Shown here: positions 6,956-31,239 of the stretch, piece after piece | Layout: the number at the start of each line of letters is the position of its first letter | Numbering within the stretch: position 1 is the stretch's first letter | From: a virus | Virus record (IMG/VR): IMGVR_UViG_3300023442_000008 | Location: 1 to 39,494 of that record | Length of the DNA: 39,494 nucleotides | Strand: one strand, 5' to 3' | Translations under genes and position numbers: made by a program | Notes under the pieces: model-generated | Database searches by the model: none | The model's input: only the letters and a program-made list of their open reading frames with translations | What the model was told of the DNA's origin: nothing

Positions 6956-9124
6956 TTAAGCCTCCCGATCAGCGTAGCGTTTGATCTTCGAGTAAACCGA
7001 CCTTAAAGCCTTTGTCAAAACCCATTTGTCGCCGCACCGCGTAACCGCCCCATTCCTTCTCAGAATAGTAAGCAGTCTATACGTATCCGACGAGTTCAAG
7101 CCAATATCGAAGCTAAGCGTTCTCAGCGTTAGGCCGTGTGGGTGTCTATCCAAGGCCTCTATAACGCTCAGCGCGTAGCCTCTACCGGTATCCAAAGCGA
7201 TTTTAACCACGCGCCGCAAAACTTCATCATCTATTTTATCTTTGCCCAACACGATTGCCAGCGCCACGGCAAGAGCGGCGTGCTGCTCCCCAGGCCGAGT
7301 GCCGGTTTCCATTTCTAAACCAGTATACTCGCCTCTTGGTCTTTTCGAGCCCAAACGCAGCAATGACACGAACAGGCCTATGGCGCACATAAGCTGTTTG
7401 GCTTCGTCCGACAACTCACCAATTCGCCGACGCATTTCGTCAGCGTTCTTTTTTAGATACTCGATATAGCCGCCGGTCAGCTGTTGTGCGTAGACTATGT
7501 CTCGGTTTCTACCGTCGCTCAAAACGCGCCCATTCGTCGACGCCAAATCGCCGCTGACGCGGTTTATAGCGGACATAATAACGTCGAGTCTCTCTGACAA
7601 CGTGCTTTCATCGACAATGATGCAATCAAGAAACCTCTCGCCGAGTTCGGCACTGTCTAGGTCGCGTATCTTCTTTGTACCGCACAAAATCCATGAGAAG
7701 CGAATGCCTTTGTATTCCCTAACCACTCGGTTTCGGTAAAAGACTCGTGAGAACCCGTCGTATAGGTCACGGGCTTCCGCGAATATAACGGCCCTTCTTG
7801 GCGACTGAATGATCGGGTCCGCGTCTTTTACGATCAAAACCTTCCCATCGATTCTGGGCACTATGCTGCTGTCGTCATCATTGCCGTTGCCGTCCGAACC
7901 CCTAAAACCGGAATGGAACCCAGTAAAAGCGCTTTGGGCTATAACGTGCCTTTTGTTGGTACTTAACGCCTCGCACAGCGTTGATTTGCCGCAGCCTGGA
8001 GGGCCCACTATGCGGAGCCAAATAGGCGGGCCTGGGATCGACACGCTAACAACCGAGGCCAACATAGCTGTTAAGGCACAGTCCAGACCATAGGTCCATT
8101 TAAGCGCCCGTTGCCAGGCCGCCCTAAGCCTTTCGTAGCTGTCGCACGGAATAGTCTCAGACGTCCCAGCGTCCAAACCGGCGGCTGTCACCGACGGGTC
8201 TTTGTACCAAGACTCCCGTGCTGGCTTAAACCGCTTCTTAAGGCTCAGCCAGGCTTTTACCCGCTCATCAATCGTTTTGCCGCTTAGCGCGTCTCTTAAA
8301 TCGTAACCGCTTGGGAGCTTCTTTGTGTAGCCTAAGTTGCCCCAAGCCAACCAACTGACCGAGTCAGCTGTGTCTTTTAGCAGAAAACAGACGCGCTTTA
8401 CCCCCGTAAACCCTGCGGGCGGTACTGTCGTCTTGGTTCTCGGGTTTACTTTCGGGTGGTCGTTGTCGAACAGTATGTAGACGTCTTTTCCTTTGAAAAA
8501 GTGCAGCCAGTTCTTTTTAAACGTGCTGCAGCCGGGTACCGCCAGAACATTCACGTCTTCCAATTCCCCAGTTTCTTCCAGCACTTCGTAAAGCGTCATG
8601 GCGTCCCACGGGCCCTCGCATAGATAAACGCGCCTCTTGCTCGGGTCGTATAGGTTTACGCCGAACAAGCCGTGTTCCAGTGTCGGCGTTGCGAGAAGCT
8701 TCCGGCTGCCTTGTACATGGAATGAGTACAACTGTCTTATTCGGTCCTTGTTTTGCGTGTCATATGCCGGCACGAGCCAAAAACCGGTCGATACGCTTTT
8801 CGTCACTCCCCACGCAATCAACGTTTCGTCTGAAAGGAGCCTTCTGTCTTTCCTTATTTCGTCGTAGCTAACCGTTGCTTTATCGCTTTCAATCCATAGT
8901 TGATTCAAAAACGCGATAACTGGGTCACTGGCCTTAATTGTCGGTTTAACTTGGCAAACGTGACACCACCATTTGCCCGTTACGCAATCGACGTAGAATT
9001 TCTCTTCCCTACCGCAGAACGGACAAGCGCCGCATGCCTCTTCTTGCCCGATCCGCGAGAATTCCGTTCCGTGGAATCTATATGGACGTAGAACCACTGG
9101 GATAGAATTAGCTCTTAGTGGCAC
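6956..9124 (-). CDS. Fused DNA primase-helicase (zinc, TOPRIM, ATPase, C-terminal winged helix)
   Basis: Makes RNA primers and probably unwinds DNA at the replication fork. Of 722 residues: a CHC2-like zinc module at about 31-57 (CGACPFCG...CHVC), TOPRIM core with YLCEGPWDA at 167-175 and ILFDND at 217-222, then an ATPase with Walker A GPPGCGKST at 374-382, Walker B-like VLIVKDAD and a downstream LGERFLD that may hold an arginine finger. The ATPase resembles AAA+/superfamily 3-like phage helicases rather than DnaB/gp4. The last ~60 residues predict a winged helix (LTLRTLSFDIGLNSSDTYRLLTILRRNG). It starts with GTG behind GGAAGGGGG. It is the first minus gene left of a divergent intergenic region shared with the HNH gene. 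Confidence 0.9.
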   Translation of the reverse strand: MPLRANSIPVVLRPYRFHGTEFSRIGQEEACGACPFCGREEKFYVDCVTGKWWCHVCQVKPTIKASDPVIAFLNQLWIESDKATVSYDEIRKDRRLLSDETLIAWGVTKSVSTGFWLVPAYDTQNKDRIRQLYSFHVQGSRKLLATPTLEHGLFGVNLYDPSKRRVYLCEGPWDAMTLYEVLEETGELEDVNVLAVPGCSTFKKNWLHFFKGKDVYILFDNDHPKVNPRTKTTVPPAGFTGVKRVCFLLKDTADSVSWLAWGNLGYTKKLPSGYDLRDALSGKTIDERVKAWLSLKKRFKPARESWYKDPSVTAAGLDAGTSETIPCDSYERLRAAWQRALKWTYGLDCALTAMLASVVSVSIPGPPIWLRIVGPPGCGKSTLCEALSTNKRHVIAQSAFTGFHSGFRGSDGNGNDDDSSIVPRIDGKVLIVKDADPIIQSPRRAVIFAEARDLYDGFSRVFYRNRVVREYKGIRFSWILCGTKKIRDLDSAELGERFLDCIIVDESTLSERLDVIMSAINRVSGDLASTNGRVLSDGRNRDIVYAQQLTGGYIEYLKKNADEMRRRIGELSDEAKQLMCAIGLFVSLLRLGSKRPRGEYTGLEMETGTRPGEQHAALAVALAIVLGKDKIDDEVLRRVVKIALDTGRGYALSVIEALDRHPHGLTLRTLSFDIGLNSSDTYRLLTILRRNGAVTRCGDKWVLTKALRSVYSKIKRYADREA

Positions 9125-18369: not shown

Positions 18370-19833
18370 ATGCCGAAGCGAACGAAGGAACAAAAGCCGA
18401 AGCGGCAAGCGAAAGGCGCGCAGAAGTCGAAGGTTCTTTACCCAACGGTGAAAGTCGAAGTCTGTGACGGCAAAAACGCTTTGACCGCTCAAAGAGCGAA
18501 AGAACTGTTGGGTTGGGAAGAGGAAACCGAAGACAAGGATTTCGGGTCGGACTACTTGCTGCGGGACGAAAACGGAATCAAAGTCCGCTGCAAGAACAAT
18601 GACCGCAATCGACCCCTCTATAAAAGCAATCTAGAAGCCTTGAAGCAGGAGCTATTGCAAGGTCGCTGGAAGCTCAACGGCGAACCTATCATCATCGGGC
18701 GGACTGGCAGAATCCTAAACGGCCAACACTCGCTAATCGCGCTAGTTTTGGCTGATCAGGTCTACCGCAAGAACGAGTTATGGAAGTCTGTCCGCCCCAA
18801 ACCGCCGGTAATGCCCAGAGTGATTGTATATGGCGTCAAAGAGGATGACGCTACCGTCAACACAATGGACACGTGCAAGAGTCGCTCACTCTTCGACGTC
18901 TTGTACCGCTCAACTTACTTTATCAAGTCCGCACCCAAGGAGAGACGGCTCTTCGCTCGTATGACAGACTATGCGGTGAGGCTTTTGTGGGCCCGTACAA
19001 GGGCTATGGAAAATCCATATGCTCCAAGACGGACCCATTCAGAAAGCCTGGATTTCATCGACAGGCACCCAAGGATTTTGAGCGCCGTTGACCACATTTA
19101 CGGGTTAGAGAAAGGGCAAAAAGCGGTTTCCCGTTTTATGTCGCCGGGTTATGCCGCTGGATTGCTCTACCTGATGGGTAGTTCGGCGTCAGAAGGCGAT
19201 TCATATTTCGGCGGAGAAAGGAAAGAGGAGGCATTGGACTGGTCCAACTGGGAAAAGGCTTGCGACTTTTGGTATCAAGTAGCCAGCGGCCAAATTGAAG
19301 CCGTCAAAGAGGCAATCGTTTCGGCTATGGAAGAAGTGGGCAGAAAGCTTACCGCCAGGGAACTTTGCACTATGTTCGTCAAGGCTTGGAACCTATTCGT
19401 TTCCGGGAAAGAATTAAAAGCTACCGCAATTAAACCTGTGTTCCAGAAAGACGAACTGGGATTGCTGCACTTGGATGAAAACCCGACTGTAGGTGGTATT
19501 GACTTGGGCGAAAAGACGAAAGAGGAGTTCCCGCCGATGGAAAGAACACCAGACCCAACGCCAGAAGAAATCAAAGAGCGCGCTGAGAAGGTCCGTAAAG
19601 AGTCACTTAGGAAAACCAGGTCAAAGAAGAAAAAGGAAATCGCTGTGGGAAATAAAGTTTGGGTTGTAGAACCGGACGCCGGAACCGAAGGTGCTTGGGC
19701 CGGAAAGCTGGTTGAGGTCTATGACGGCCCAAATGGCAAGATCGCTCGCGTTAAGGTAGCGCAAGGCTTCGCCGGCGCCGGCAAAGAGTACGAAGTTCCG
19801 TTTGAGTATCTGCAGACTGATCAGCCGGTTTAG
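18370..19833 (+). CDS. ParB/DndB-like phage protein with C-terminal SH3/KOW-like domain
   Basis: A 487-residue protein, first gene of the plus block. Residues ~60-190 match the ParB-like fold common in phages: NRPLYKSNLEALKQELLQGRWKLNGEPI, then GRILNGQHSLIALVLA (usual form DGQHRL), and later NTMDTCKSRSLFDVLY (usual form DTG..RS..DVL). In ParB proteins this fold binds or hydrolyses CTP or acts as a nuclease; in phage relatives the role is unknown, and the Arg of the QHR signature is Ser here. A helical middle is followed by a Lys/Arg-rich linker (~410-425) and a C-terminal barrel (VGNKVWVVEPDAGTEGAW...YEVPFEYL). AAAGGAGGAAGAAC gives a strong start. Basic ends suggest DNA binding. Confidence 0.7.
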   Translation: MPKRTKEQKPKRQAKGAQKSKVLYPTVKVEVCDGKNALTAQRAKELLGWEEETEDKDFGSDYLLRDENGIKVRCKNNDRNRPLYKSNLEALKQELLQGRWKLNGEPIIIGRTGRILNGQHSLIALVLADQVYRKNELWKSVRPKPPVMPRVIVYGVKEDDATVNTMDTCKSRSLFDVLYRSTYFIKSAPKERRLFARMTDYAVRLLWARTRAMENPYAPRRTHSESLDFIDRHPRILSAVDHIYGLEKGQKAVSRFMSPGYAAGLLYLMGSSASEGDSYFGGERKEEALDWSNWEKACDFWYQVASGQIEAVKEAIVSAMEEVGRKLTARELCTMFVKAWNLFVSGKELKATAIKPVFQKDELGLLHLDENPTVGGIDLGEKTKEEFPPMERTPDPTPEEIKERAEKVRKESLRKTRSKKKKEIAVGNKVWVVEPDAGTEGAWAGKLVEVYDGPNGKIARVKVAQGFAGAGKEYEVPFEYLQTDQPV

Positions 19834-19835
19834 AT

Positions 19836-19907
19836 TTAAGTTGCGTTAGGGCCCCCAGCTGCTTCAGTCAGCGGCTGGGGGCCAGTGACGTTCTTAGCGC
19901 AACTTGA
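19836..19907 (+). other. Nested inverted repeats downstream of the ParB-like gene
   Basis: An outer 10-pair stem (19836-19845 with 19898-19907, TTAAGTTGCG/CGCAACTTGA, one G-U pair) encloses an inner perfect 10-pair hairpin (19850-19859 with 19874-19883, GGCCCCCAGC/GCTGGGGGCC). No T-run follows either stem, so it is not a standard intrinsic terminator. It may protect the mRNA 3' end, act as a processing site, or be a small RNA. The rest of the gap to 20,019 contains no convincing gene. Confidence 0.55.
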
Positions 19908-20019
19908 CTAAGCGGATAGACTGGGGCGAAAACCGGTGTCGCTACTTCCGCGTTGGTTGGGCTTGGTCTTAAAGGCTGGTTCGGTGTGGCTATGGAAGCG
20001 GCTGAAAATGGTGGACTAG

Positions 20020-20262
20020 ATGCTAAGTGAGTCCGAATTGACTCGGCTGATCCTTGAATGGGGAACAAGAAGGTTCCCCGGACGGGTTCATTTCATCATA
20101 ACCAATAACAGGAAGCACACTTATGCCATTATCTTCGGGGACGAGGACAGGTGGGCCGCCGTCCATAAAGTGCTTGAGTGGGTGTATAACCGCAGGATGC
20201 GGCTGAAACCAGACGCGGCTCTATTCCTAATTCAGTGCATTTTCTCTGAGCAACCGGATTGA
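20020..20262 (+). CDS. Small hypothetical protein
   Basis: An 80-residue protein with mixed helix and strand (ESELTRLILEWGTRRF, VHFIITNNRKHTYAIIFG, WAAVHKVLEWVYNRRMRL). No family recognised. A weak GGTGGA site precedes the ATG. It begins a run of small early genes and is followed four bases later by a zinc-ribbon gene. Confidence 0.6.
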   Translation: MLSESELTRLILEWGTRRFPGRVHFIITNNRKHTYAIIFGDEDRWAAVHKVLEWVYNRRMRLKPDAALFLIQCIFSEQPD

Positions 20263-20266
20263 TGCT

Positions 20267-20545
20267 ATGACAGACGAACAGAAAAATCCGTTGTATTGCG
20301 AAATCTGCTTCAAAACGAACTCCGAATGGAACCCGGTTCAGCTGTTGTTGGTCCCTAAACGCGTTCCAGAAAGCGAAGCCGGTTCGAAGCGACGTGCCTA
20401 TAAGATGCTTTATGTGTGCAATACATGCGAGCACGGTATGTTGCAGGAACTCCTAAACGACGAAAACGGCGACCAGGGTTTCGCTTTATCGAAACGGATA
20501 GAGCAAGTTATTGCCGGATTGAGAAAGCGCTTTTCGCCGGTTTAG
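20267..20545 (+). CDS. Small zinc-ribbon hypothetical protein
   Basis: A 92-residue protein with paired Cys knuckles CEIC (residue ~11) and CNTC (~51), compatible with one zinc ribbon, then a helical tail (KRIEQVIAGLRKRF). Typical of small early phage proteins that bind host factors or nucleic acid, but no target can be named. It starts four bases after the previous gene. Confidence 0.65.
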   Translation: MTDEQKNPLYCEICFKTNSEWNPVQLLLVPKRVPESEAGSKRRAYKMLYVCNTCEHGMLQELLNDENGDQGFALSKRIEQVIAGLRKRFSPV

Positions 20546-20635
20546 GGTTTGCGGGCGGTCCTGAACGCACGCCAAGCACACTTCCAGTGAACGCAATTCC
20601 ACGTCGGAAGCGGTAGCCCGTACCACAATTCGGCC

Positions 20636-20664
20636 TTGCGTGTCCGGCCGCCGGCAGATATGAT
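20636..20664 (+). promoter_or_regulatory. Moron promoter with overlapping inverted repeat
   Basis: TTGCGT (20636-20641), 17-base spacer and TATGAT (20659-20664, 5/6) form a sigma70-type promoter. A perfect inverted repeat GTAGCAG (20666-20672) / CTGCTAC (20696-20702) straddles the predicted start near 20671 and encloses a GTCGG-AGC-CCGAC hairpin, so it could be an operator or leader structure. The preceding 20,546-20,635 shows no gene. Confidence 0.5.
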
Positions 20665-20744
20665 AGTAGCAGTAGTGGGTCGGAGCCCGACGGACCTGCT
20701 ACGTCGGTGCACGCGGTCGGGCGTGACGAAGAGGAGGCACAGTC

Positions 20745-21026
20745 ATGGAAGTGTGGGTCGAACAAGGCGAAGTCAGGGAGCTCCGGCCGGGCGAACCGTA
20801 CGTCGTCCGGCCAGCGGGTATCGCGGCGAACCCGCCTGTCCGATGGGAGGTGTTGTTCCCGCTGCGGCTCCCGGACGGTCGATACAGGCACGTCGCGGCC
20901 CGCTGGTGGTTCGACGGCCGCGCGGCTCTACTGGTCGAGGTCACGCCAGACGAAGAGCAACTGGTCTGGCGTGGCCAAAGGGAAGCGCGCAGTGGCGGGG
21001 TTCATGCCCTTCGGTTTTATGACTGA
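20745..21026 (+). CDS. GC-rich moron gene, unknown product
   Basis: A 93-residue, strand-rich protein (EVWVEQGEVRELRPGEPYVVR, WEVLFPLRLPDGRYRHVAARWWF, AALLVEVTPDEEQLVW) with no recognised family. Its DNA is about 70% GC in counted 60-base rows, against about 45% in the row just after the block. It has its own promoter, an AGGAGGCACAG ribosome site and its own intrinsic terminator, the defining layout of a moron. Genes of this kind often alter the host or exclude other phages, but nothing in this product proves a role. Other long frames over the block are by-products of high GC. Confidence 0.65.
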   Translation: MEVWVEQGEVRELRPGEPYVVRPAGIAANPPVRWEVLFPLRLPDGRYRHVAARWWFDGRAALLVEVTPDEEQLVWRGQREARSGGVHALRFYD

Positions 21027-21030
21027 GTTT

Positions 21031-21070
21031 ACCCGCGTCCGGTTTATACCGGGCGCGGGTTTTCGTTTTG
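21031..21070 (+). terminator. Intrinsic terminator of the moron
   Basis: A 12-pair stem (21031-21042 with 21049-21060: ACCCGCG-T-CCGG / CCGG-G-CGCGGGT, one G-U pair), loop TTTATA, then a T-rich tail (TTTTCGTTTT). It starts four bases after the moron stop codon. Confidence 0.85.
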
Positions 21071-21109
21071 GGTTGAATAAAAAAGAAACGACTTTAAAGG
21101 AGGTCTAAA

Positions 21110-21385
21110 ATGGAACGCAAAATCAATCTTAAACGGGCTCCCTTCAAAAGCGCGGCTCTTCAATACATTGAGAGTAACCCTGGTCAGACAAAATGGCGTG
21201 TTGTGCATTTAGGGCAGTCGGTGAGACTGCCAAACCAAACCGTCGGCTATCGGTATGCGGCGGTAAACGATTTAATCAGGGAGGGGTTGGTTGAAAACAG
21301 GGGAAGGCCCAATTTCTCGGCTCTTTATTTGACTGAGGCGGGTCAAGAGGTATTGAGGTTTTACTACGAGGAGGTGGAACAATGA
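21110..21385 (+). CDS. Winged-helix DNA-binding protein
   Basis: A 91-residue protein with a winged helix-turn-helix pattern: FKSAALQYIESNPGQTKWRVVHLGQSV, then YRYAAVNDLIREGLVENRGRPNFSALYLTEAGQEVL, where the wing and final helix resemble MarR/ArsR-like folds. AAAGGAGGT seven bases before the ATG is nearly ideal. Probably an early transcription regulator; its ATGA overlap with the next gene suggests joint expression. Confidence 0.7.
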   Translation: MERKINLKRAPFKSAALQYIESNPGQTKWRVVHLGQSVRLPNQTVGYRYAAVNDLIREGLVENRGRPNFSALYLTEAGQEVLRFYYEEVEQ

Positions 21386-21645
21386 CTCCAAAGTTTAAAA
21401 CGGTGGGAGACGCGGTTCAGCGTTTTAAACGGTGCCGGAAGGTCAAAGGGTTTATTTTGGAAGATGACTCGCCAGACTTGGATAGACTCTGCGACCACTG
21501 CGGTAGACCGCTCAAGGAAGGAAAAGGCAACCGTTGCGAGTATCGACCGAATACTAAAAGCGTTTTGTGCTTCCACTATTACTGTGCCTGGGAGGCGTTG
21601 ATGAGCCACATAATTAGGTTGGGACGAGTCGCTTACTACAAGTAA
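21382..21645 (+). CDS. Small Cys/His-rich hypothetical protein
   Basis: An 87-residue basic protein with a CDHC knuckle near residue 37 and later Cys/His (NRCEYRPN, VLCFHYYCAW) that could complete a zinc site. The start overlaps the previous gene's stop (ATGA) and has GGAGGTGGAACA before it. No family recognised. Confidence 0.65.
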   Translation: MTPKFKTVGDAVQRFKRCRKVKGFILEDDSPDLDRLCDHCGRPLKEGKGNRCEYRPNTKSVLCFHYYCAWEALMSHIIRLGRVAYYK

Positions 21646-21667
21646 ACGCTGAGAAGAGGTGTTAGGA

Positions 21668-22324
21668 ATGAAGGTTTGGACGTGTCTATCAGAGTACGAA
21701 CTGGGTGCTATCGGAAAAAGCCTTGGGTTGACCTTTATCGGGTTTAAGCAGGTCGGTCGGGCCTATCAGTTCCGGTTGGGATTGGCTGATAGACAGCCAA
21801 GACCGCAAAGATATAGCCGTGTCAGTCATCGTGGCCGCCGTGTGGCGGCGGTTTGCTGGCACGGCTATTTCCATTTCCTTAGACAGCTGTTTAAGCAGGA
21901 TTCAAAAGCCCGGGTCAAAACGGCGGTTGAAGACTATAACGGCGTCGACGAGTTTATCACAAAAGCCGTTAGGAGCGGGCGTCGAAATGTTGGGCCAACA
22001 GCTGATCCGCTCGCATATGAAAGAGCTTGCGAGTGCTGGGAACTCCCGGATAGCGAAGATGTTATAGCAGGCGCCCTATTCGACAAATTCGTCGTTAAGG
22101 AATATGACGGCGAGTGGGTCAATATTCAAACGGTTTTCAGTTTGAAAGCGGCTCGCCGAATTGCTCAGGAGCGTTGGCTTAAAAACGGAGACCCGGTGGC
22201 TGTCATCGGCGTTTTTAGCGACCCCAATGAGGAATGGTCGCGGTATCTATTCTATAAAAGCAGCACAACCGACTGGAACCGTTTAATCGCGGCTGGCGGG
22301 TTGTGCCAAAGCTATGCGAATTGA
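21668..22324 (+). CDS. Conserved phage hypothetical protein
   Basis: A 218-residue protein. The segment VAAVCWHGYFHFLRQLF...ARVKTAVEDYNGVDEF...RNVGPTADP resembles a hypothetical family seen in many tailed phages, with a Cys/His at CWHG and a later ACECW. No activity is known to me. I use the ATG at 21668; a GTG at 21659 is an alternative with the same AGAGGTG site upstream. It overlaps the next gene's leader. Confidence 0.6.
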   Translation: MKVWTCLSEYELGAIGKSLGLTFIGFKQVGRAYQFRLGLADRQPRPQRYSRVSHRGRRVAAVCWHGYFHFLRQLFKQDSKARVKTAVEDYNGVDEFITKAVRSGRRNVGPTADPLAYERACECWELPDSEDVIAGALFDKFVVKEYDGEWVNIQTVFSLKAARRIAQERWLKNGDPVAVIGVFSDPNEEWSRYLFYKSSTTDWNRLIAAGGLCQSYAN

Positions 22325-22337
22325 AAGGAGGTTTAAA

Positions 22338-22991
22338 ATGGCCAAGACAAAACTTGAAAAACTGGAAGAACAAGCGGCAAGAGTCTCAAGTGCGTCCGAG
22401 CACGCGCAGCGTTTGATTGAAAGCCTGGTTGATTTGACGGCTTGGTCGTTTACGGGGAACGTGATTGACCACGGAGCCGGCGCGACAAACCATCAGAACG
22501 CTCCAAGATGTGTTTGTGGTCACCCAGTCCGCTATCACTACGAAATTAGGGCCGACAGGGACGTCGGCAATTGGAAAGCCGGGGATACGACATACGTCGG
22601 TTCCGTGTGCATCGGCCAAGTGGGCTATTTGAACCCGGGACTGGCTAATGCAATTAAGGAAGCCGAGAAGAAGCTTATGGAAAAGCTCAAAGAGGCGAAG
22701 AAAAAGGCCCATTTGGCCCAAATAGAGGAACGGGTCAAGGCTTTGAGGGAAGAGTACGACGAGTTGCTAGATAGGCTAAACGCTCTTTATGACCACTTCA
22801 GGAATAGAGGTTTGCGGGCGCCTTATGATCTTTGGGCGGCGGTTGCCAGCTACAAATGGCGGCTACCACAAGAGCCCCCCAAATACCAGCGCGCGGGCAA
22901 CTACGTCCGTTGGTACGAGAAGAAGATCAAGGAGGCAAAACGGGTTTTGGACGTCACTAACAAAGCAGCTGAGTATACCCCGGGTGTTTAA
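22338..22991 (+). CDS. Hypothetical protein with Cys/His motif and long coiled coil
   Basis: A 217-residue protein. After a helical start, CVCGHPVRYHYEIRA...YVGSVCIGQVG resembles a small zinc-like motif (C-x-CG-P-RY ... VGS-C-I) found in unrelated phages' early proteins. Residues ~100-160 are a strong coiled coil (AIKEAEKKLMEKLKEAKKKAHLA, then ERVKALREEYDELLDRL). The ATG at 22338 is behind AAAGGAGGT, so the 24-base upstream extension overlapping the previous gene is rejected. Function unknown. Confidence 0.65.
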   Translation: MAKTKLEKLEEQAARVSSASEHAQRLIESLVDLTAWSFTGNVIDHGAGATNHQNAPRCVCGHPVRYHYEIRADRDVGNWKAGDTTYVGSVCIGQVGYLNPGLANAIKEAEKKLMEKLKEAKKKAHLAQIEERVKALREEYDELLDRLNALYDHFRNRGLRAPYDLWAAVASYKWRLPQEPPKYQRAGNYVRWYEKKIKEAKRVLDVTNKAAEYTPGV

Positions 22992-23039
22992 AGGCGGTAA
23001 AGCGGTATTTTGACTCACAGAACAAAGAGGAGGGCTAAA

Positions 23040-24098
23040 ATGAAGGCTGACGTTGTTAGGCTTGACATTGGCCATTGTTGGGTTCCCGTTGTTGTCCCAG
23101 TGAAGTCAAACGGCGATTGGCCTGAGTTGCCGGATTGGGTCGACTTGGAGTGCACGTATGGCTATATCAGGAGCGGTATGTCAGGCTGCCGGTATTACAA
23201 GCACGCGCACCAAACTATGTCCGGTAGCGTCGAGTTGCCCGATTACCCTGTTTTGGCTGTGCCAAAGGAAGGCATGGAGCCAGACGTTGAGCAACTCCCG
23301 GAAGCCACAACCTGGGTGGTACAGCTATATCTGGAAAAACCGCTTCCGGTTTTAGAGGCTGCGGCGGAGCACGGCTATATCGAAAGCAGGGTTTATATTG
23401 ACCGCATCATAGCGCCCCAAAAGGCTTTATGGGCTCTAAGCAACTATATGAAAAAGGGCTCGTACACTCTGCCGAACGCTTGGGCTTACTTCAACTTTGT
23501 CGAATGCTCTTATACAGCGGAGCTGGTGGCACCAGGAGAACCAGATATAGTTCTGGGGACGCTCCCCAAAAGGGTTGCCAACGAAGTTATCCGTTTTTGG
23601 CCGCCAAGCATTCCGTCCGGCTATATGGCCGCTGACGATGAGCACGGCCTAAAAATCGCTGTCCGGTTCGACCAGGACGGTTGCAGAGAGTCATGGTACA
23701 TCCGAACGAACAACCCGTTTTACTGGGAAGAGGGCGACCCCTGTGACTATGTCGGCTGGGAACGATGGGGCGGGGTGTCTCACGCCCCGTGTATCATAAG
23801 GTGTCGTCCAAAGGAGTTATACCGCATTGCGGTCTACCACTTGGGCGACGTGATTGTTTTGCCGACTTACTATGACGACGACCATTCGTTCGAACCGGCT
23901 ACAAATAGGCAGCTGGAGAAACTCAGCTTGACGAACTGTAGCATAAGGTCTGCAGAGGGCGGGTTGGAGGTTATACCGGAAAATAAAGAGGCGCCTGTTG
24001 TGATCAGCCACCCGGAACACGGTTCGATTGTGTTAAACGAGGGAATGGAAGCTCGTCTATATCAGGTGCCATACACCCAGCGGGGCCACGGCGATTAA
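23040..24098 (+). CDS. Large hypothetical protein of the early region
   Basis: A 352-residue protein, mostly beta with many Trp and Tyr (WVPVVVPV, WVVQLYLEKPLPVLEAAAEHGYIE, ESWYIRTNNPFYWEEGDPCDYVGWERW). No domain recognised. AAGAGGAGGGCTAAA before 23040 fixes the start. Cys residues do not form clear knuckles. Confidence 0.6.
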   Translation: MKADVVRLDIGHCWVPVVVPVKSNGDWPELPDWVDLECTYGYIRSGMSGCRYYKHAHQTMSGSVELPDYPVLAVPKEGMEPDVEQLPEATTWVVQLYLEKPLPVLEAAAEHGYIESRVYIDRIIAPQKALWALSNYMKKGSYTLPNAWAYFNFVECSYTAELVAPGEPDIVLGTLPKRVANEVIRFWPPSIPSGYMAADDEHGLKIAVRFDQDGCRESWYIRTNNPFYWEEGDPCDYVGWERWGGVSHAPCIIRCRPKELYRIAVYHLGDVIVLPTYYDDDHSFEPATNRQLEKLSLTNCSIRSAEGGLEVIPENKEAPVVISHPEHGSIVLNEGMEARLYQVPYTQRGHGD

Positions 24099-24124
24099 AC
24101 GGAGAAAGGAAAGGAGGGACTCAT

Positions 24125-24535
24125 ATGAAAGACCCAGAGAAAACGGCTGACACTGTTTCTGCTTTAATTAGCGAAATGGCTAAGAAGCAGGCACCGCTAC
24201 CGGACGGTCATATCGAGTTTTGCAGAAAGGCCGCGTTTGACTCAATGGTGAGTATGGATAGCGGTGACTCCGGCACCAACGTGTATCCAGACAGAGGACT
24301 CATGCTACGCTGCTTTACTGTATGGGCCTTTGGGGTGCTCACTATGTTAGACAGCCAAATAAGGATCGGTAATATGACCCCAGGCCCCAAAAAGGACGAG
24401 GCAGCGGCAGCGTTAAACGACTTGATTGCTAGGGTTTCTGACTGTATGGCATATGTGGTGACAACGGCTTATAGACATGGATATATGGACGGGCGCATGG
24501 ACGCGGTAGAAAAGCATAGCGGCAAGGATAATTAG
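24125..24535 (+). CDS. Helical hypothetical protein, first of a paralogous pair
   Basis: A 136-residue helical protein with a central hydrophobic helix (MLRCFTVWAFGVLTMLDSQI) and a C-terminal AYRHGYMDGRMD segment. Shares order and motifs with the next gene (N-terminal MKD...TVS, central F..W..G..T.LD, C-terminal AY..GY..G). GGAGGGACTCAT precedes the ATG. Function unknown. Confidence 0.65.
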   Translation: MKDPEKTADTVSALISEMAKKQAPLPDGHIEFCRKAAFDSMVSMDSGDSGTNVYPDRGLMLRCFTVWAFGVLTMLDSQIRIGNMTPGPKKDEAAAALNDLIARVSDCMAYVVTTAYRHGYMDGRMDAVEKHSGKDN

Positions 24536-24544
24536 GAGAGACAC

Positions 24545-24946
24545 ATGAAGGATCAAATGACTAAAATCGCTGAAACGGTTTCGACGAACCTGTTAGCCTC
24601 TTTGCTGTCTGAGGAACCGCTGCCTAAGAGGTGCATCGATGACTTAGAAGACTGTGTGTCTTTACCGGCGGCAACGGTTGACCGCTGGTTTGACCTGGTC
24701 AGAAAAGGTAGGGTGGAAGTTGATGAGGAATTCAGCGACGCGGCCTTTTGCATTTGGGGTCTGGGCTTGATCACCCTACTCGACGGTAAAACGGAATATT
24801 TGGTCGGTCCAAGAAAGGGCGACAAGAAGATGCTGTTTGACATTTTGAGGTATATCACGAAAAGTATGTCGTGCTTGCTCAAAGCCGCGTATGTTGCTGG
24901 CTACGTAGCCGGTTCGAAAAACCGCAACAGTAGTACCAACAATTAA
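24545..24946 (+). CDS. Helical hypothetical protein, second of a paralogous pair
   Basis: A 133-residue protein parallel to its upstream neighbour: MKDQMTKIAETVSTNL start, FCIWGLGLITLLDG centre, and AAYVAGYVAGSKN near the end. The similarity suggests tandem duplication followed by strong divergence. GGAGAGACAC precedes the ATG, nine bases after the previous stop. The central helix could be buried in a helical bundle or touch membrane; no function is known. Confidence 0.65.
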   Translation: MKDQMTKIAETVSTNLLASLLSEEPLPKRCIDDLEDCVSLPAATVDRWFDLVRKGRVEVDEEFSDAAFCIWGLGLITLLDGKTEYLVGPRKGDKKMLFDILRYITKSMSCLLKAAYVAGYVAGSKNRNSSTNN

Positions 24947-24963
24947 GAAAGGGAGGCACAGCG

Positions 24964-25509
24964 ATGTCGGCGAAAATCGATTTGACCAAACTGACGTTTG
25001 AAGAGTTGGTGGAACTCAAAACCGAAATCGTTTTGGAACTCAGACGTCGGCGCGGCGAGCCAACCGTTAAACGGGTGCGCCTGCTCGCCAGAGAACGGGA
25101 TTTAAACGCTGCGGGTCGCGGCAGCGAAGAGTATCGGAAAATTGCCATTCCCGACAAAGATGGGTCGTATGGAAAAGCGGAATGGCTAAGCGATTTCGGC
25201 ACCCGGGTTGCAGACTCGTGGACGCAGCGCGGCACTAGAGCCGCGCAAAGGCGGTGCCAAACGGTCGTGGAAGCGGAAGTACCTATAGGCCCAAACGGGG
25301 CTTTGGTCATCAGCATCAATAAGCGTATAGGATATGGCAGCAACAGGCCGCCAGTCATCAACGCCGGCTTCTTGCCTGAAAAACCCGAACAAGAGGGGCT
25401 GACGGAGCCCTTATGGGGCGAAGGGATCGAATCTGTTGGCAGCAAACGGGTTGGCAGCGACTGGGTTACCGTTGTGAGGCTTAAAGACGGTAGGGTTTTA
25501 GAGGTTTGA
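24964..25509 (+). CDS. Hypothetical protein ending the early block
   Basis: A 181-residue, mostly basic protein. The N-terminus is a helical SAP/HTH-like run (LTKLTFEELVELKTEIVLELRRRRG); the rest is mixed, with a beta-rich end (VGSDWVTVVRLKDGRVLEV). Preceded by GGGAGGCACAGCG, one of five copies of that leader. It is the last plus gene before the terminator at 25,534. Confidence 0.65.
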   Translation: MSAKIDLTKLTFEELVELKTEIVLELRRRRGEPTVKRVRLLARERDLNAAGRGSEEYRKIAIPDKDGSYGKAEWLSDFGTRVADSWTQRGTRAAQRRCQTVVEAEVPIGPNGALVISINKRIGYGSNRPPVINAGFLPEKPEQEGLTEPLWGEGIESVGSKRVGSDWVTVVRLKDGRVLEV

Positions 25510-25533: not shown

Positions 25534-25568
25534 CTGGCCGACCGAAATGGTCGGCCGGTTTTTATTTT
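25534..25568 (+). terminator. Strong intrinsic terminator between convergent blocks
   Basis: A 10-pair stem (25534-25543 with 25549-25558, CTGGCCGACC/GGTCGGCCGG, one wobble) with loop GAAAT, then TTTTTATTTT. It ends the plus-strand block. The stop codon of the convergent glycosyltransferase lies within its T-tail, and the A-rich flank could let it act weakly in the other direction. Confidence 0.9.
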
Positions 25569-26497
25569 AGGCCGTTGTCACGCAGAATAGACAGCATTCT
25601 CTCAACCCGCTTCGTGTATGTGTAATCCCTACCGCAGCGGTCAAAGGCCGCGCGCCGGGCCCGTTCTCTTTTTTCGTCGTTTTCGAGCCACTCGTCTATG
25701 GCAGCGAAGAGGCTTCTAAAACTGGTGTACGGCGGGGTGGCTCTTAAAAACAAACCGATTTCAGTTTCTGGTTCGAACTCGGATTCGATACCAGCGATAA
25801 CTGGGTGTAAAAGGAAGCCGCCACGGCCAGTAACCTCATAAACTCGGTTAGACCAGTAGAATGGGCTTGGGTGGCTGTCACCAACGACAATTTTAACTCG
25901 GGAAAGTATACGGTTGAGCTCTAAACCGCGCTTGTTCTGGATCAGTATGAAACGGTGCTTGTACCGCCTGCACAACGCGCATAGCAGCGCAGATCGGTAT
26001 TGCTCGCTTGGGTGCCCTTTCACTGAACCGACGAAGCATACATCGAATTCGTTAGTCGGCTCGTAAAAGACGTGTTCTGGTTCGTGTATGCCCTGTCTTA
26101 AGACGTAGTGCTTTATACCGGCCCGTTCCCATTCCCAGTCGTGACCGCCGTCGGTTGAAAACACGATATGGCACAGCTTAGCTTGTATTGGAAGCCGCCG
26201 TTTAAGCCCAAAGTACAAATCCCAAAGCCAGCAGACGGTTATTACCCCCCGCTCATGACACCAAGGTATGAACTCGGAATAAAGCTGTTCCTCGGGTTTG
26301 CTGAATAAAACGAATTGGGGTTCAGTTTCGCGGACCAGTTTCTGTAAGGCGACTAGCTCCTGTCGGTACGTAGGTCGGGTGATACCGTTAGCCACAACGC
26401 AGTAGCGGAAGACGGTAACGCCGACTTGCTGAAGAGCGTACTCAACATAGGTCTCTGTTGAGTGTGGAATAAACTTACCAAGAAATAAACACCGCAT
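25562..26497 (-). CDS. CgeB-like glycosyltransferase (GT-B fold)
   Basis: A 311-residue protein resembling the CgeB/Glyco_trans_1_2 group. The N-terminal half has a Rossmann start (MRCLFLGKFIPHST) and FVLFSKPEEQLY. The C-terminal nucleotide-sugar domain has the family phrase VVGDSHPSPFYWSNRVYEVTGRGGFLLHPVIAGIE, followed by the acidic EPETEIGLF. It should transfer a sugar from a nucleotide-sugar donor; sugar and acceptor are unknown. It is the last gene of the modification cluster, starting three bases after the FkbM methyltransferase, behind CGGAGCCC. Confidence 0.8.
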   Translation of the reverse strand: MRCLFLGKFIPHSTETYVEYALQQVGVTVFRYCVVANGITRPTYRQELVALQKLVRETEPQFVLFSKPEEQLYSEFIPWCHERGVITVCWLWDLYFGLKRRLPIQAKLCHIVFSTDGGHDWEWERAGIKHYVLRQGIHEPEHVFYEPTNEFDVCFVGSVKGHPSEQYRSALLCALCRRYKHRFILIQNKRGLELNRILSRVKIVVGDSHPSPFYWSNRVYEVTGRGGFLLHPVIAGIESEFEPETEIGLFLRATPPYTSFRSLFAAIDEWLENDEKRERARRAAFDRCGRDYTYTKRVERMLSILRDNGLK

Positions 26498-26499
26498 AG

Positions 26500-27126
26500 C
26501 TAGGGCTCCGATTTGTGCTTGTATATGACGTCACGGTGGGTACCGTGGTTGTTGTACTCACAGCACAAAACGTAGCCGAGACGTTTGAGGTAGTTATCAA
26601 GCTGTCTAAATGTTGTCCAGCCGGGCATAGGGGCTTTGTCTCTGACTTCCAGATTGAGCCATTTGACGCGCCCGCTCGCCATTAGCTGTGGTCCGCTTTG
26701 CAACGCGGGTAGTTCATAACCCTCTATGTCTATCCAAAGCAGTATGCGGGTTGGCTTGCCGGCCCATAAATCAAATTTGTCCAAACTCCATACTTTCGCG
26801 GTGGCGGCGGCCCGCGCCTTTCCGGCTTTAAAAACGCTTGCCGAGCCTAGATTACTTGTTCCCCCTTTTAGATAGAGAGTTACAGAACCAACCCGCTCAG
26901 GACCGATTGCGACTCTTATGAGTTTGCCCGGAAATACATCTTTGAGCTTTCTGTAGGTTTCGGGTAAAGGTTCACAACCAAACAGCTTCATTCTTGGATA
27001 GTGCTTCTTTAGCGTGAGCCACTCTGTTTTCGTCCCGACGCCAATATCATACATTGCGTCTGGGGACCCCGTTATAAAGCGGCATACAACGCTTTCCAAC
27101 TTTTCCCGCTGGGCGGTTCTGTTCAT
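26500..27126 (-). CDS. FkbM-family methyltransferase
   Basis: A 208-residue SAM-dependent O-methyltransferase-like protein. Motif I region MYDIGVGTKTEW, motif II FGCEPLPETYRKL and the family signature LLWIDIEGYELPALQSG are all present. FkbM enzymes methylate hydroxyls of sugars and polyketides and often sit in glycan clusters. The start overlaps the upstream glycosyltransferase stop (ATGA). In context it probably caps or tunes a glycan made by the neighbouring transferases. Confidence 0.85.
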   Translation of the reverse strand: MNRTAQREKLESVVCRFITGSPDAMYDIGVGTKTEWLTLKKHYPRMKLFGCEPLPETYRKLKDVFPGKLIRVAIGPERVGSVTLYLKGGTSNLGSASVFKAGKARAAATAKVWSLDKFDLWAGKPTRILLWIDIEGYELPALQSGPQLMASGRVKWLNLEVRDKAPMPGWTTFRQLDNYLKRLGYVLCCEYNNHGTHRDVIYKHKSEP

Positions 27127-28190
27127 GACCGTCTGTCCGCTTTGGTTAAACCCTTAACCAAGCTGACCTTAGCTGCTTTCGACTTTTCCGGCTTACCGTA
27201 TAGGATCAACTCACGTATGGATTCTGCGTGCCTACACCAAGCCCGTTGTTCGGCCCACCAACGGGCGGACAGACTATCCTGCGTTATGTCCAGACCCAAA
27301 ATGCCTTTGCATATACCCACCAGACTCTCCGCACTTGGTAGGTACCAAGCAACGTTTCTGGCGACCCGCTTGATCGTCATGTTTGCCGGTATGCGTCTTA
27401 TAGCCGGGTACTCATTCCACGGCTGACCGTTCGTCGAAATGACCGGCATACCGGAAGCCATTGCTTCCATAGGCTCAAGGCCGGTTCCGTCAACGCTATG
27501 CGGGCAAATAAGAACGTCTCCGTCATCATAAAGCTTGGTGTTGTCTTCGATTTCGCCCAAGACGACAAGGTTTTCGCCGACCGCCCAATGCAGCGGTACC
27601 TGGGTGCGGACAGTAAGTGGCATTTCCGGCCAGAGCTCTAAAGCGCGCCGTATAACGGAGGCGCCTTTTCTGCCTGCCCAACCGCCGTGACCGTTTATGA
27701 AGAGGAATCGCCCACAGTGGGTGCGTTGCTTGAACTCAAACTTATCGACGTCCACTGGCCACGGGTAATAAACACAGGGAAGCTCATCCCTGTAAAGATT
27801 AAATGATTGCCGCGTCGGGCAGATAAACAAGTCGACATAGTCCAGCCATATGCCGTGCTTCCTTTCGGGGGTCCACTCAAGGCATAAGATGCATACGACG
27901 CGTTTGCCTTTGCCTTTAGCTCGGCGGGGCAGCTCACTGTAGTATGGAGTTTCATCGAACAAGACGACGTCGACGGAATCCAGAAAGTCGTTGATTTTGT
28001 CGAGACTCTCTAAACCGGATTTAGGTCCAAACCGTATTTCCTGGCAGTCTACGTCGTCGGGAACGGGGAGAGTCTTGTAGACGCGGTGTTGGACTATAAG
28101 CCATTTATGAGGCTTTATGTATTTAGCCAGCTGTCTATTCTTCTCGCCCAAGCCCGACGCCGTGTTGAGTCCAATCAACCCGATTTTCAT
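27123..28190 (-). CDS. Glycosyltransferase, GT-B fold (GT4-like)
   Basis: A 355-residue protein. Starts MKIGLIGLNTASGLGEKNRQLAKYI, a usual GT4 acceptor-side Rossmann entry with a Gly-rich loop, and carries FLFINGHGGWAGRKGASV and the donor-site phrase DGTGLEPMEAMASGMPVISTNG, whose E-x7-E-like spacing is seen in retaining GT-B enzymes. I start at the ATG at 28190, behind GGGAGTGGG. It lies between the GT-A-like transferase and the FkbM methyltransferase in one operon. Confidence 0.85.
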   Translation of the reverse strand: MKIGLIGLNTASGLGEKNRQLAKYIKPHKWLIVQHRVYKTLPVPDDVDCQEIRFGPKSGLESLDKINDFLDSVDVVLFDETPYYSELPRRAKGKGKRVVCILCLEWTPERKHGIWLDYVDLFICPTRQSFNLYRDELPCVYYPWPVDVDKFEFKQRTHCGRFLFINGHGGWAGRKGASVIRRALELWPEMPLTVRTQVPLHWAVGENLVVLGEIEDNTKLYDDGDVLICPHSVDGTGLEPMEAMASGMPVISTNGQPWNEYPAIRRIPANMTIKRVARNVAWYLPSAESLVGICKGILGLDITQDSLSARWWAEQRAWCRHAESIRELILYGKPEKSKAAKVSLVKGLTKADRRS

Positions 28191-28191
28191 T

Positions 28192-28902
28192 TTACCCACT
28201 CCCGCCGTTCAGTAGTTTCAAAGCATCAAAATTCTCTCCCGGAAAGCTTGGTGCCAGCGACCGCTTCTTTTTGCCCATAGTGCTTATGCCTACGCCGGTA
28301 TGCTGCACCAAGGACGGCATATGGACATATTCCCTGTAACCAGCGTTTTTAAGGGACACGACAACGGCACCATCAACCGCTTCCCAACCACGGTTCAAAT
28401 CAGTCGGCTTGGTTACCATATGGTCGGAGCTTAACAGGTCTATGACGGCGTCTCTGTCAAACATCAAAGCCAGCGCCCCTAACCCTTTTTGGTTGCTCTG
28501 ATACCAGCCTACATAGTTCGGGCTCGGAACACACTCCTGGTTTTGCGGGTATGTGTATAGGTTAAAGTATGCTTTTCTAGCCGGATAAGAACAACGCTCT
28601 AGGTACTGCCTTAGGTTTCTGCAAGCGAGTATATCGTCTTGAAACAGGATATACCAACGCGAAACCGGGTTTCTAACGTATAGCTCCCATAGGGCCAAAA
28701 CCCAGTTAGCGAAGGTCTTAACGACTGGATACCTGGCCGTTACTTCCAGACCAAACCGTTTTGATATGGATTCGGCACTACGGACTCCGTCGACAAAAAG
28801 GCGCGGTTTGTCGAACCCGGCCCGTTTTAGGGACTCGAGGGTTCGCGGCAGCGTTGTGTTAAGCCTTTGGCTGACAGTTATGACTCCGTAGGCCCAGCTC
28901 AT
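28192..28902 (-). CDS. GT-A-like glycosyltransferase
   Basis: A 236-residue protein: YGVITVSQRLNTTLPRTLESLKRAGFDKPRLFVDG at the N-terminus is a GT-A nucleotide-binding start; YILFQDDILAC at 84-94 holds a QDD in the DxD metal-site position; the later DRGWEAVDGAVVVSLK-like segment is common in GT2/GT25-type enzymes. I start at the ATG at 28902, which overlaps the upstream stop as ATGA; the longer frame to 29025 is antisense-like. Donor and acceptor unknown. Confidence 0.75.
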   Translation of the reverse strand: MSWAYGVITVSQRLNTTLPRTLESLKRAGFDKPRLFVDGVRSAESISKRFGLEVTARYPVVKTFANWVLALWELYVRNPVSRWYILFQDDILACRNLRQYLERCSYPARKAYFNLYTYPQNQECVPSPNYVGWYQSNQKGLGALALMFDRDAVIDLLSSDHMVTKPTDLNRGWEAVDGAVVVSLKNAGYREYVHMPSLVQHTGVGISTMGKKKRSLAPSFPGENFDALKLLNGGSG

Positions 28903-29180
28903 GACCCGCAGGCCCTGTTTATAGCCTCTTCGACTAACTCTCTTGCTGCCTTTTCGGCAAACCGTTTGAACATGGTGGTGAGGGACCAGAGCAAGGTGTC
29001 CTGCTTGGCCCCCTGAACGAGCCACCGGACGATTATGTCTACGTTATCCCGGCACCAGTCGCAGCCGAGGGCGTCCATAACGGTTGCCCTGTTTTTACAG
29101 GCGCAATCATCGGTGGGTTTTATTCCGTAGCGCTCTTCTATGAGTCGTTTGAGTTCGGTACCGGGTTTGCCACTTTTCAT
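28899..29180 (-). CDS. Stand-alone copy of the Cys-rich DWCR module
   Basis: A 93-residue protein whose segment PGTELKRLIEERYGIKPTDDCACKNRATVMDALGCDWCRDNVDIIVRWL closely matches residues ~84-128 of the PRTase-HAD fusion two genes upstream. Shared marks: PGTELK, DCxC, MDALGxDWCRxN. The four Cys (C-x-C and later Cys) could bind metal. The start overlaps the sulfotransferase stop (ATGA). Function unknown; it may be a docking or carrier module shared by the cluster. Confidence 0.75.
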   Translation of the reverse strand: MKSGKPGTELKRLIEERYGIKPTDDCACKNRATVMDALGCDWCRDNVDIIVRWLVQGAKQDTLLWSLTTMFKRFAEKAARELVEEAINRACGS

Positions 29181-29815
29181 TCGGCCGGCTCCGTCGGATA
29201 GCCAAATCTACGTATGTCGTCTGCAAAGTGGTCCTGAACCCAACGAACGCATTTGGAGGTCCACTCCACTTTGCCGGACCTTTTCGCCGCATTGATTTTC
29301 GGCAGTTGGGCGTCTTCCGGCAAGCCTAATATGCCTCTTATTTTAGACCAGTTTTCATTTAGCTGTTCGAACTTAAACGGTTCAATGCCCAAGTCGCCCC
29401 CGCCCGGGCTGAGACAGAAGTGGTACCACAGACCTTCGCCGTCGGACAAAAAGCCGAAATGCAGCGGCACCCAGTCACAAAAGGGGTTTCTCATAGCCGC
29501 TTCCGCCTCCTTGCGTATGGGTAGTGGGACGGCGTTCCCGGCTTCCTGGTAAAGCTGTCTCCAAAAGAAGTAGGTACTCGGTATAACGGTCCAGGGGCTT
29601 CTGATGACGGCAAACTTCTTTACCGCATACCAATCTGGGATCATCGGGAAGACGTCGACGGCTCGGGTATGTCGGCGCCACCGGTATGGTCGGTCGCACA
29701 TTTGAATCAAATAGACGTCGTTGGGTCTTCGGTGTCGCATGTAGACAGTTTTTATAGAAACGCCCGCCGTGCGCGGGATATGAATAAACAAGTGCTGTCC
29801 AGGAGCGTAGATCAT
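29177..29815 (-). CDS. Sulfotransferase (PAPS-dependent, Sulfotransfer_2-like)
   Basis: A 212-residue protein. The 5'-phosphosulfate-binding loop is HIPRTAGVS at 12-20 (family form HIPKTAG), the 3'-phosphate site is VIRSPWTVIPSTYFF with R72 and S80, and H49 in RRHTRAVDVF is a candidate catalytic His. Enzymes of this group sulfate hydroxyls of sugars using PAPS. I start at the ATG at 29815 behind GGGAGG; the frame upstream overlaps the PRTase-HAD gene. A sulfotransferase in a phage late operon is unusual and points to sulfated glycan on virion or host. Confidence 0.82.
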   Translation of the reverse strand: MIYAPGQHLFIHIPRTAGVSIKTVYMRHRRPNDVYLIQMCDRPYRWRRHTRAVDVFPMIPDWYAVKKFAVIRSPWTVIPSTYFFWRQLYQEAGNAVPLPIRKEAEAAMRNPFCDWVPLHFGFLSDGEGLWYHFCLSPGGGDLGIEPFKFEQLNENWSKIRGILGLPEDAQLPKINAAKRSGKVEWTSKCVRWVQDHFADDIRRFGYPTEPAE

Positions 29816-31239
29816 GTTGGCCTCCCGTAACACTTGCCGGTTGTCGGACAAACCACTAAGCCTCCGGACAAGTCAGCTATCCGTTGAGCCTGGTAGTCGT
29901 CGCTTTCTATAAATATATGGGGAGGAGGGTTTACTGGTCTATGCAAAAACTGCCTATAGGTTTCGGCTTTTATCTGCACAACACGGTCAAAAGACCGTTG
30001 AGCCTTGTTTGGTGCGTCGTACATAACGAGCATCCCGTATGACACACCCCACCGCCTTAGCCACTCGTCGGTTTCTTTTCTGTATTTCTCCAGCCTGGCT
30101 GTTACTATGATGGGAACCCTCCCGCGCCTAACCAGGTACTTCGGTTTGACCGTTTTGAGCCACTCCATATAGGCCGGCCCATCATCGTCTTTGTCGGGCG
30201 GACAGTCTTGGCAAAGAACGCCGTCCATATCGGTGACGATTGACGGTAGCAGGACCGAATTAAAAAGGTTCCACTCAAGCAAGTGCGGCCACGGGAGTTC
30301 CGTGACAAACAAGTCCGGTTTGCTACCGGCGGCTGGATTGCAGTAGATAGAGGCGTGTATGACGGTATAACCGGACTTCCTATACGGCGTCAAGGCTTCT
30401 CGGGCCGCGCGAACGCTGTTACCGGTCATGGTAGTGTCGTCAATGACGACCAGGGAGCCCTTTTTTGGCAACGGGTTTGTCGACGTCTCAAGTCTCCAGC
30501 CGGCTCCTGGGTTGTATATTTGACGCCTTTTTGGGTCAAGGATGTAAAGCGGTCTATGTAACAGCATGGCAACCAAAGACGCTGGTAGCACCCCGGACCG
30601 CGCTACGCCTACGACGATCGAGACGTCTGGCGGCAGCAACTGGACCAGCGCAGAAGCGTTTCGGATTAGCTCCTCGGTTTTTATAAAGCGTATACCAGCG
30701 ACGGCACCGACACGAAACCAACCGGCGTTAACCAGCTTTGGCTGGCTCCTTCTGTGCTTTCTTTCCGCTTTTGCTATGGCTATTAGGACTATGCGTTTGG
30801 CAACGGCCCGGACAAACGGTATATGACGCTTCTTGGCTTCTACATGCATTACGTCAAGGATTTGTTCTATGTTCTGTCGACACCAATCTGGGCCCAGCGC
30901 GTCCATTCTGGCGGCCATATCCCGACAGCCGCAGTCGGAAGTGGCGTGTATACCGAACTTGGCCAGCAGATTTTTCAACTCGGTACCTGGGAGCGGCTGT
31001 GTTTGGTGGATTGTGTCCGGTAGTTCCGGCTGCCAGCGTTCGGGTGTATGAGGTATGTTCGGTTTGACGACGGGACTTGGGTGTTCCGCTAAAATCAAAT
31101 CTATTTCCCCGTCAGAGTAGCCCCATCGCTTTAGATAGGTACGGCGTATTTCCGGCGGTATGGGTCTACCACGTTCGTCAAAACCCATACACATTGCCCG
31201 CTGAACGCCGACCAGTTTGTTGCAGTCTATACCCTTCAT
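29812..31239 (-). CDS. Fusion: Cys module + phosphoribosyltransferase + HAD hydrolase
   Basis: A 475-residue multidomain protein. Residues 1-65: small domain with C6 and C17 (GIDCNKLVGVQRAMCMG). Residues ~84-160: the DCGC...MDALGPDWCR module. Residues ~178-318: type I phosphoribosyltransferase, with VVGVARSGVLPASLVAMLL and PRPP loop LVVIDDTTMTGNS (263-275). Residues ~333-460: HAD phosphatase-like domain with D337 and D339 in VTDMDGVL, motif II T380 in IIVTAR, K424, and motif IV ESDD at 445-448. All key residues of both enzymes are present. Chemistry: transfer of phosphoribose from PRPP, then removal of a phosphate. Substrate unknown. It follows the four-module structural gene and is closely coupled to the sulfotransferase. 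Confidence 0.82.
   Translation of the reverse strand: MKGIDCNKLVGVQRAMCMGFDERGRPIPPEIRRTYLKRWGYSDGEIDLILAEHPSPVVKPNIPHTPERWQPELPDTIHQTQPLPGTELKNLLAKFGIHATSDCGCRDMAARMDALGPDWCRQNIEQILDVMHVEAKKRHIPFVRAVAKRIVLIAIAKAERKHRRSQPKLVNAGWFRVGAVAGIRFIKTEELIRNASALVQLLPPDVSIVVGVARSGVLPASLVAMLLHRPLYILDPKRRQIYNPGAGWRLETSTNPLPKKGSLVVIDDTTMTGNSVRAAREALTPYRKSGYTVIHASIYCNPAAGSKPDLFVTELPWPHLLEWNLFNSVLLPSIVTDMDGVLCQDCPPDKDDDGPAYMEWLKTVKPKYLVRRGRVPIIVTARLEKYRKETDEWLRRWGVSYGMLVMYDAPNKAQRSFDRVVQIKAETYRQFLHRPVNPPPHIFIESDDYQAQRIADLSGGLVVCPTTGKCYGRPT

Follow-up and report, generated by a model that had tools for sequence, protein, structure and literature searches.

A GC-rich unit made up of a non-coding leader, one gene and a terminator spans positions 20545–21070 on the + strand of the window, which is the whole 39,494-base stretch of DNA analyzed here (IMG/VR virus record IMGVR_UViG_3300023442_000008, a metagenomic contig and a fragment). 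There is about an even chance that this unit is a single-gene accessory transcription unit, that is, a moron in the broad sense, which was acquired into a variable rightward cassette behind a ParB-like gene and whose product might bind a host or defence protein. Morons are defined by control signals of their own and by a deviating GC content (PMC2920897), and the term is used for SPP1 (PMC6316719).

The source is an uncultivated siphovirus-like tailed phage. Its contig encodes a PolA-type polymerase, a primase/helicase, a PD-(D/E)XK exonuclease, a uracil-DNA-glycosylase-like (UDG-like) protein and a Dam-type methylase, in addition to a small terminase and a tape measure; genes of the glycosyltransferase, FkbM-methyltransferase and sulfotransferase-like kinds form a cluster. 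The genes of this fragment include none recognised as an integrase or repressor, so that a lysogenic role is unsupported. The region from 18.4 to 25.5 kb is the sole long rightward block of the contig. It opens with the ParB-like gene (18370–19833, + strand, 487 aa), which is conserved in the phage family and anchors the upstream side of the accessory cassette, and continues with small orphan ORFs. The protein is called ParB-like for its motif NGQHT, by comparison with the DGQHR-type motif. Everything in the cassette 3′ of this gene is accessory. The unit itself lies between an orphan ORF of 92 aa and 48% GC (20267–20545, + strand) and a winged-helix-like ORF of 91 aa and 49% GC (21110–21385, + strand). 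Two further features of the region were noted. Right after the ParB-like gene, at 19834–20019, there is a structured non-coding stretch (z about -4) without a T run, which contains a long GC-rich hairpin, GGGCCCCCAGC...GCTGGGGGCC, within AAGTTGCG/CGCAACTT. The cassette is separated from the tail genes by a leftward block (25562–29851), perhaps responsible for decoration of the virion or host surface, in which glycosyltransferase genes are joined by those for an FkbM-type methyltransferase and a sulfotransferase-like protein.

The unit was delimited by its GC profile. In 60-nt windows, GC is 0.58–0.72 within the gene, 0.60–0.67 immediately upstream, from 20520, and 0.35–0.45 downstream, from 21040, which bears out the initial annotation, where a GC-rich gene with high GC upstream and a drop downstream had been described. 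The coding sequence has a GC content of 66.3% versus 52.0% for the contig; its neighbours are at 48–49%, the remaining cassette is at 48–55% and the highest value in any other 280-bp window of the contig is 0.654. The comparison was extended to 22 relatives, in which 114 ORFs led by a Shine-Dalgarno (SD) sequence follow the ParB-like gene. Here, the unit deviates from its local average by +0.143 versus a mean of +0.005 (sd 0.035) for the cassette ORFs of the relatives, none of which (0/114) is as high. As the GC content lies above that of all neighbours and its deviation above that of all 114 of these ORFs, the outlier is real and specific to the unit. The 8 bp CCGGTTTA occur as a direct repeat on either side of the unit, at 20537–20544, where the preceding gene has its stop codon, and at 21039–21046; this could be a chance match.

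Positions 20745–21026 (+ strand, stop codon included) probably code for a protein of 93 codons, P0001 (10.8 kDa, pI 6.1). GC at the three codon positions is 0.78, 0.49 and 0.72, with G at the first position at 0.46, and the product contains 13 arginines and no lysine among its 93 residues. The 3-periodicity of the coding sequence was matched in only 2 of 2000 dinucleotide shuffles (P 0.001), whereas that of four non-coding RNA controls from relatives was reached in 110–327 of 1000. In addition, the amino-acid log-odds of the gene frame are +3.5, versus -15.5 and -18.8 for the other two + frames; one antisense frame, which is broken by a stop, has +5.7. An ATG ORF of at least 93 codons arises in 17.5% of shuffles and, at such a GC content, ORF length is weak evidence. 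The single 93-residue gene that had been annotated is thus present as a frame with both an SD sequence and codon periodicity. P0001 is hydrophilic (gravy -0.45), and no hydrophobic stretch of membrane-segment length was seen in its sequence. An AlphaFold model made without an alignment is all beta and of low confidence (pLDDT 48.5), and a Foldseek search of the PDB with this model gave no match below E 0.5.

The signals around the gene differ in strength. The strong ones are the SD sequence AGGAGG (20732–20737, + strand), which is located 7 nt before the ATG (shuffle P 0.041), and an intrinsic terminator (21031–21060, + strand; fold z -5.4) with a 13-bp stem that contains 10 G-C pairs and is followed by TTTTCGTTTT. 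The strong terminator proposed from the sequence was therefore confirmed. The promoter had been called near-consensus, which was an overstatement: the site, TTGCGT-N17-TATGAT (20636–20664, + strand), is weak, agreeing at 8/12 positions (3/6 and 5/6), and was missed by the scan, which required 9/12. Its spacing is optimal, and an equal or better site occurs in 8% of shuffled 199-nt leaders (P 0.08). Around the presumed start point there is a 7-bp inverted repeat, GTAGCAG...CTGCTAC (20666–20702, + strand), with 23 nt between its arms, an inner hairpin of GTCGG-AGC-CCGAC and a local fold of z -0.2. The operator-like repeat thus exists over the start point as described, but it is near chance (P about 0.05): the count of 7-bp inverted repeats in the leader is equalled in 5% of shuffles and another nearby repeat of 7 bp is equally good.

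Searches with P0001 found no match in Pfam, PHROGs, NCBIfam, PADLOC or PDB and no relative in phage and plasmid collections, IMG/VR or genome contigs, where the contig scans would pick up only close relatives. It has no credible match in 53 related or other phage records and, with regard to anti-phage defence, fits no PADLOC model. Consequently, the statement that the product resembles nothing known holds for the profile and collection searches. Two candidate homologs were discarded: the match to G023/L027 (E 0.011) is antisense with an internal TGA and is spurious, and the matches to Sinorhizobium plasmids (E 0.4) are noise. Scans of genome contigs for the host, in which P0001 and the ParB-like alignment served as queries, gave no match.

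The ParB-like protein and PolA served to identify relatives of the phage. These share gene order with the window on the upstream side of the cassette, namely for the replication genes, the UDG-like gene and the ParB-like gene. None of the genes of the window cassette at 20020–25509 is shared by the relatives, and this includes scans with two neighbours. A check of whether relatives are missing exactly this segment had been proposed. The unit is indeed absent from them, but an exact empty site was not found because the relatives are also without the flanking orphan genes. GC-rich pockets in L019, L006 and L014 were considered as homologs of the unit and rejected, as there is neither DNA nor protein similarity; the pocket of L006 is an HNH-like gene. 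Positions 6255–6585 of L014, behind the ParB-like gene, are GC-rich and RNA-like (z -2.7), with no good ORFs and no Rfam family. The accessory cassette of another relative encodes a compact nuclease of 549 aa with a Cas12f1-like TNB domain (PF07282, E 1e-11) at L030:6811–8457, on the same contig as L004.

Relatives carry RNAs in the corresponding place. A descriptor scan located type III hammerhead ribozymes directly behind the ParB-like gene at L006:6770, L008:6738, L011:7020 and L040:5636, those of L008 and L011 sitting just before the SD sequence of the next gene; the same scan found no hammerhead in the window. When the four are aligned, stem I and the loop I–loop II contact covary, with 97.7% of cells paired versus 36–52% in slid controls. 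Seven of 11 pairs are changed on both sides (n=4), and the Watson-Crick contact between the loops shows a compensatory change from GGUA/UACC to CGCA/UGCG. Hammerheads of this type also turned up in a pattern scan, in 56 IMG/VR stretches (L069–L124), many of them directly before an SD sequence and start codon, with the SD sequence often overlapping stem III; a few of these matches lack the remaining ribozyme core and were set aside as chance. From this arrangement, self-cleavage could alter access to the overlapping SD sequence. Hammerheads with such a pseudoknot are already known, including from phages and prophages (PMC3088659). Separately, L015 has two Rfam type II hammerheads (3657–3725 and 8779–8839), about 5 kb apart, which flank its ParB-like gene.

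In L008 (6290–6738) and L011 (6645–7020), the hammerhead terminates an ORF-free RNA of about 380–460 nt, which opens with the boxA-like motif GCTCTTTGATAAC. The motif is also present in L019 (motif and RNA together from 2665 down to about 2390, - strand) and L002 (6873), and in L006 it is found about 90 nt before the hammerhead. In L008, L011, L019 and L002, the boxA-like motif CTCTTTGA.AAC lies behind a promoter-like stretch, and a structured RNA without ORFs comes after it, in the region behind the ParB-like gene. Boxes of this kind accompany only 4 of the 42 distinct IMG/VR hammerhead cases. The boxA-led RNA may be an antiterminated phage ncRNA. The hammerhead cassette of the relatives is better supported than the moron reading of the unit in the window.

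Folding of the unit raised the question of whether it, too, is an RNA. Against dinucleotide shuffles, 20740–21030 folds at -150 kcal/mol with a z of -4.1 to -4.6, and 20660–21065 with a z of -4.7. The first fold contains an 11-bp stem between start and stop, in which CAGUCAU and AUGACUG could pair the start with the stop codon over a long range (20740–21025, + strand), although this is only about 2 sd past synonymous-codon shuffles; a hairpin at 20939–20976 is complementary over 92% of 13 nt. In L019, the closest relative, the same cassette includes a structured RNA that is GC-rich and lacks ORFs (dinucleotide-shuffle z -4.9), and the unit is without protein relatives. The dinucleotide scores prompted a non-coding RNA as the main reading, which was weakened by the codon periodicity, missing from the ncRNA controls, and by shuffles in which the protein and codon usage were fixed and only synonymous codons were moved. 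In the latter, z is -1.2 for the coding sequence alone and -1.8 or -2.0 with its flanks, whereas two genes of this phage that look undisputed, and in which no RNA is suspected, fold as well, at -3.0 and -3.5. The RNA of L019 scores -6.0 in this test, and those of L008 and L011 only -2.0 and -1.5. As the latter two score weakly while two plain genes score strongly, the synonymous-shuffle test has limited power. The unit also matches no Rfam family. Overall, it is unlikely that the unit is a terminator-ended structured non-coding RNA gene or dual-function RNA, with a 93-codon frame that is incidental to high GC. A more specific version is distinctly improbable: in it, the place of the boxA-like/hammerhead RNA that relatives have behind the ParB-like gene would be taken by a structured RNA of the phage, or by an mRNA with a dual function and a frame closed by the start–stop stem.

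A different objection is that the gene is an ordinary orphan of the cassette, GC-rich by chance, long resident and co-transcribed with its neighbours, rather than a recent and independent acquisition. All of the neighbours are likewise orphans, the promoter is weak and the strand is that of the cassette; however, the neighbours are at 48–55% GC and the terminator separates the unit from the downstream genes. We consider long residence doubtful on balance. The metagenomic contig and the abrupt step in composition, together with the 8-bp repeat on both sides, would also fit a foreign GC-rich stretch joined in during assembly. Such a chimera is very improbable, as the gene and terminator are complete and in the orientation of the cassette, the same cassette continues on both flanks and the 8-bp match is weak.

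The moron reading draws on the deviating GC (0.66 versus 0.52), the single gene, the good SD sequence and the terminator, which together fit the published criteria (PMC2920897), and to this extent the independently acquired unit of the initial annotation is partly supported. None of the observations links the product to the suggested roles in host takeover, anti-defence or superinfection exclusion. As regards transcription control of its own, the terminator is strong, and the promoter-like site (8/12, P 0.08) and the operator-like repeat (P 0.05) are weak. This weakness and the missing empty site count against the claim, as do the RNA folding beyond dinucleotide shuffles, the ease with which so long an ORF arises at this GC content, and the absence of a homolog that would reveal selection on the protein or a donor. 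As in the morons of temperate and lytic phages, the gene is placed between phage genes, deviates in GC and has its own terminator and possibly promoter, and the product is under 100 aa and unlike known proteins. The unit differs from morons in being without a homolog in another phage class, a demonstrated empty site or evidence of lysogeny, and in its weak promoter. It resembles the structured ncRNAs of L008, L011 and L019 in its strong folding and its place in the cassette behind the ParB-like gene, but has neither a boxA-like motif nor a hammerhead and has instead codon periodicity, an SD sequence and an intrinsic terminator.

If the unit is indeed an acquired accessory gene, it would have come from a GC-rich source. 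Both the excess of GC1 over GC3 and the lack of lysine, alongside 13 arginines, would be compatible with an origin in a high-GC genome, the third codon positions being the first to drift towards phage composition. Transcription would probably start at the modest promoter of the unit or arrive by read-through, and translation would yield a small, soluble protein with no membrane segment. Binding to host or defence proteins is a common mode of action of small orphan accessory proteins in phages, and P0001 might, with low confidence, act in this way in the infected cell. Membrane-type superinfection exclusion appears less likely for a soluble, hydrophilic protein without a membrane stretch.

If this reading is true, the gene is one more orphan accessory gene for a phage group whose post-ParB cassette resembles an insertion hot spot. 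Its cargo here consists of small orphan ORFs; in this place relatives carry RNAs with ribozymes, an HNH protein and a Cas12f/TnpB-like nuclease. By itself, this gene alters no concept; the post-ParB cassette is a reasonable place in which to seek host-takeover or anti-defence proteins.
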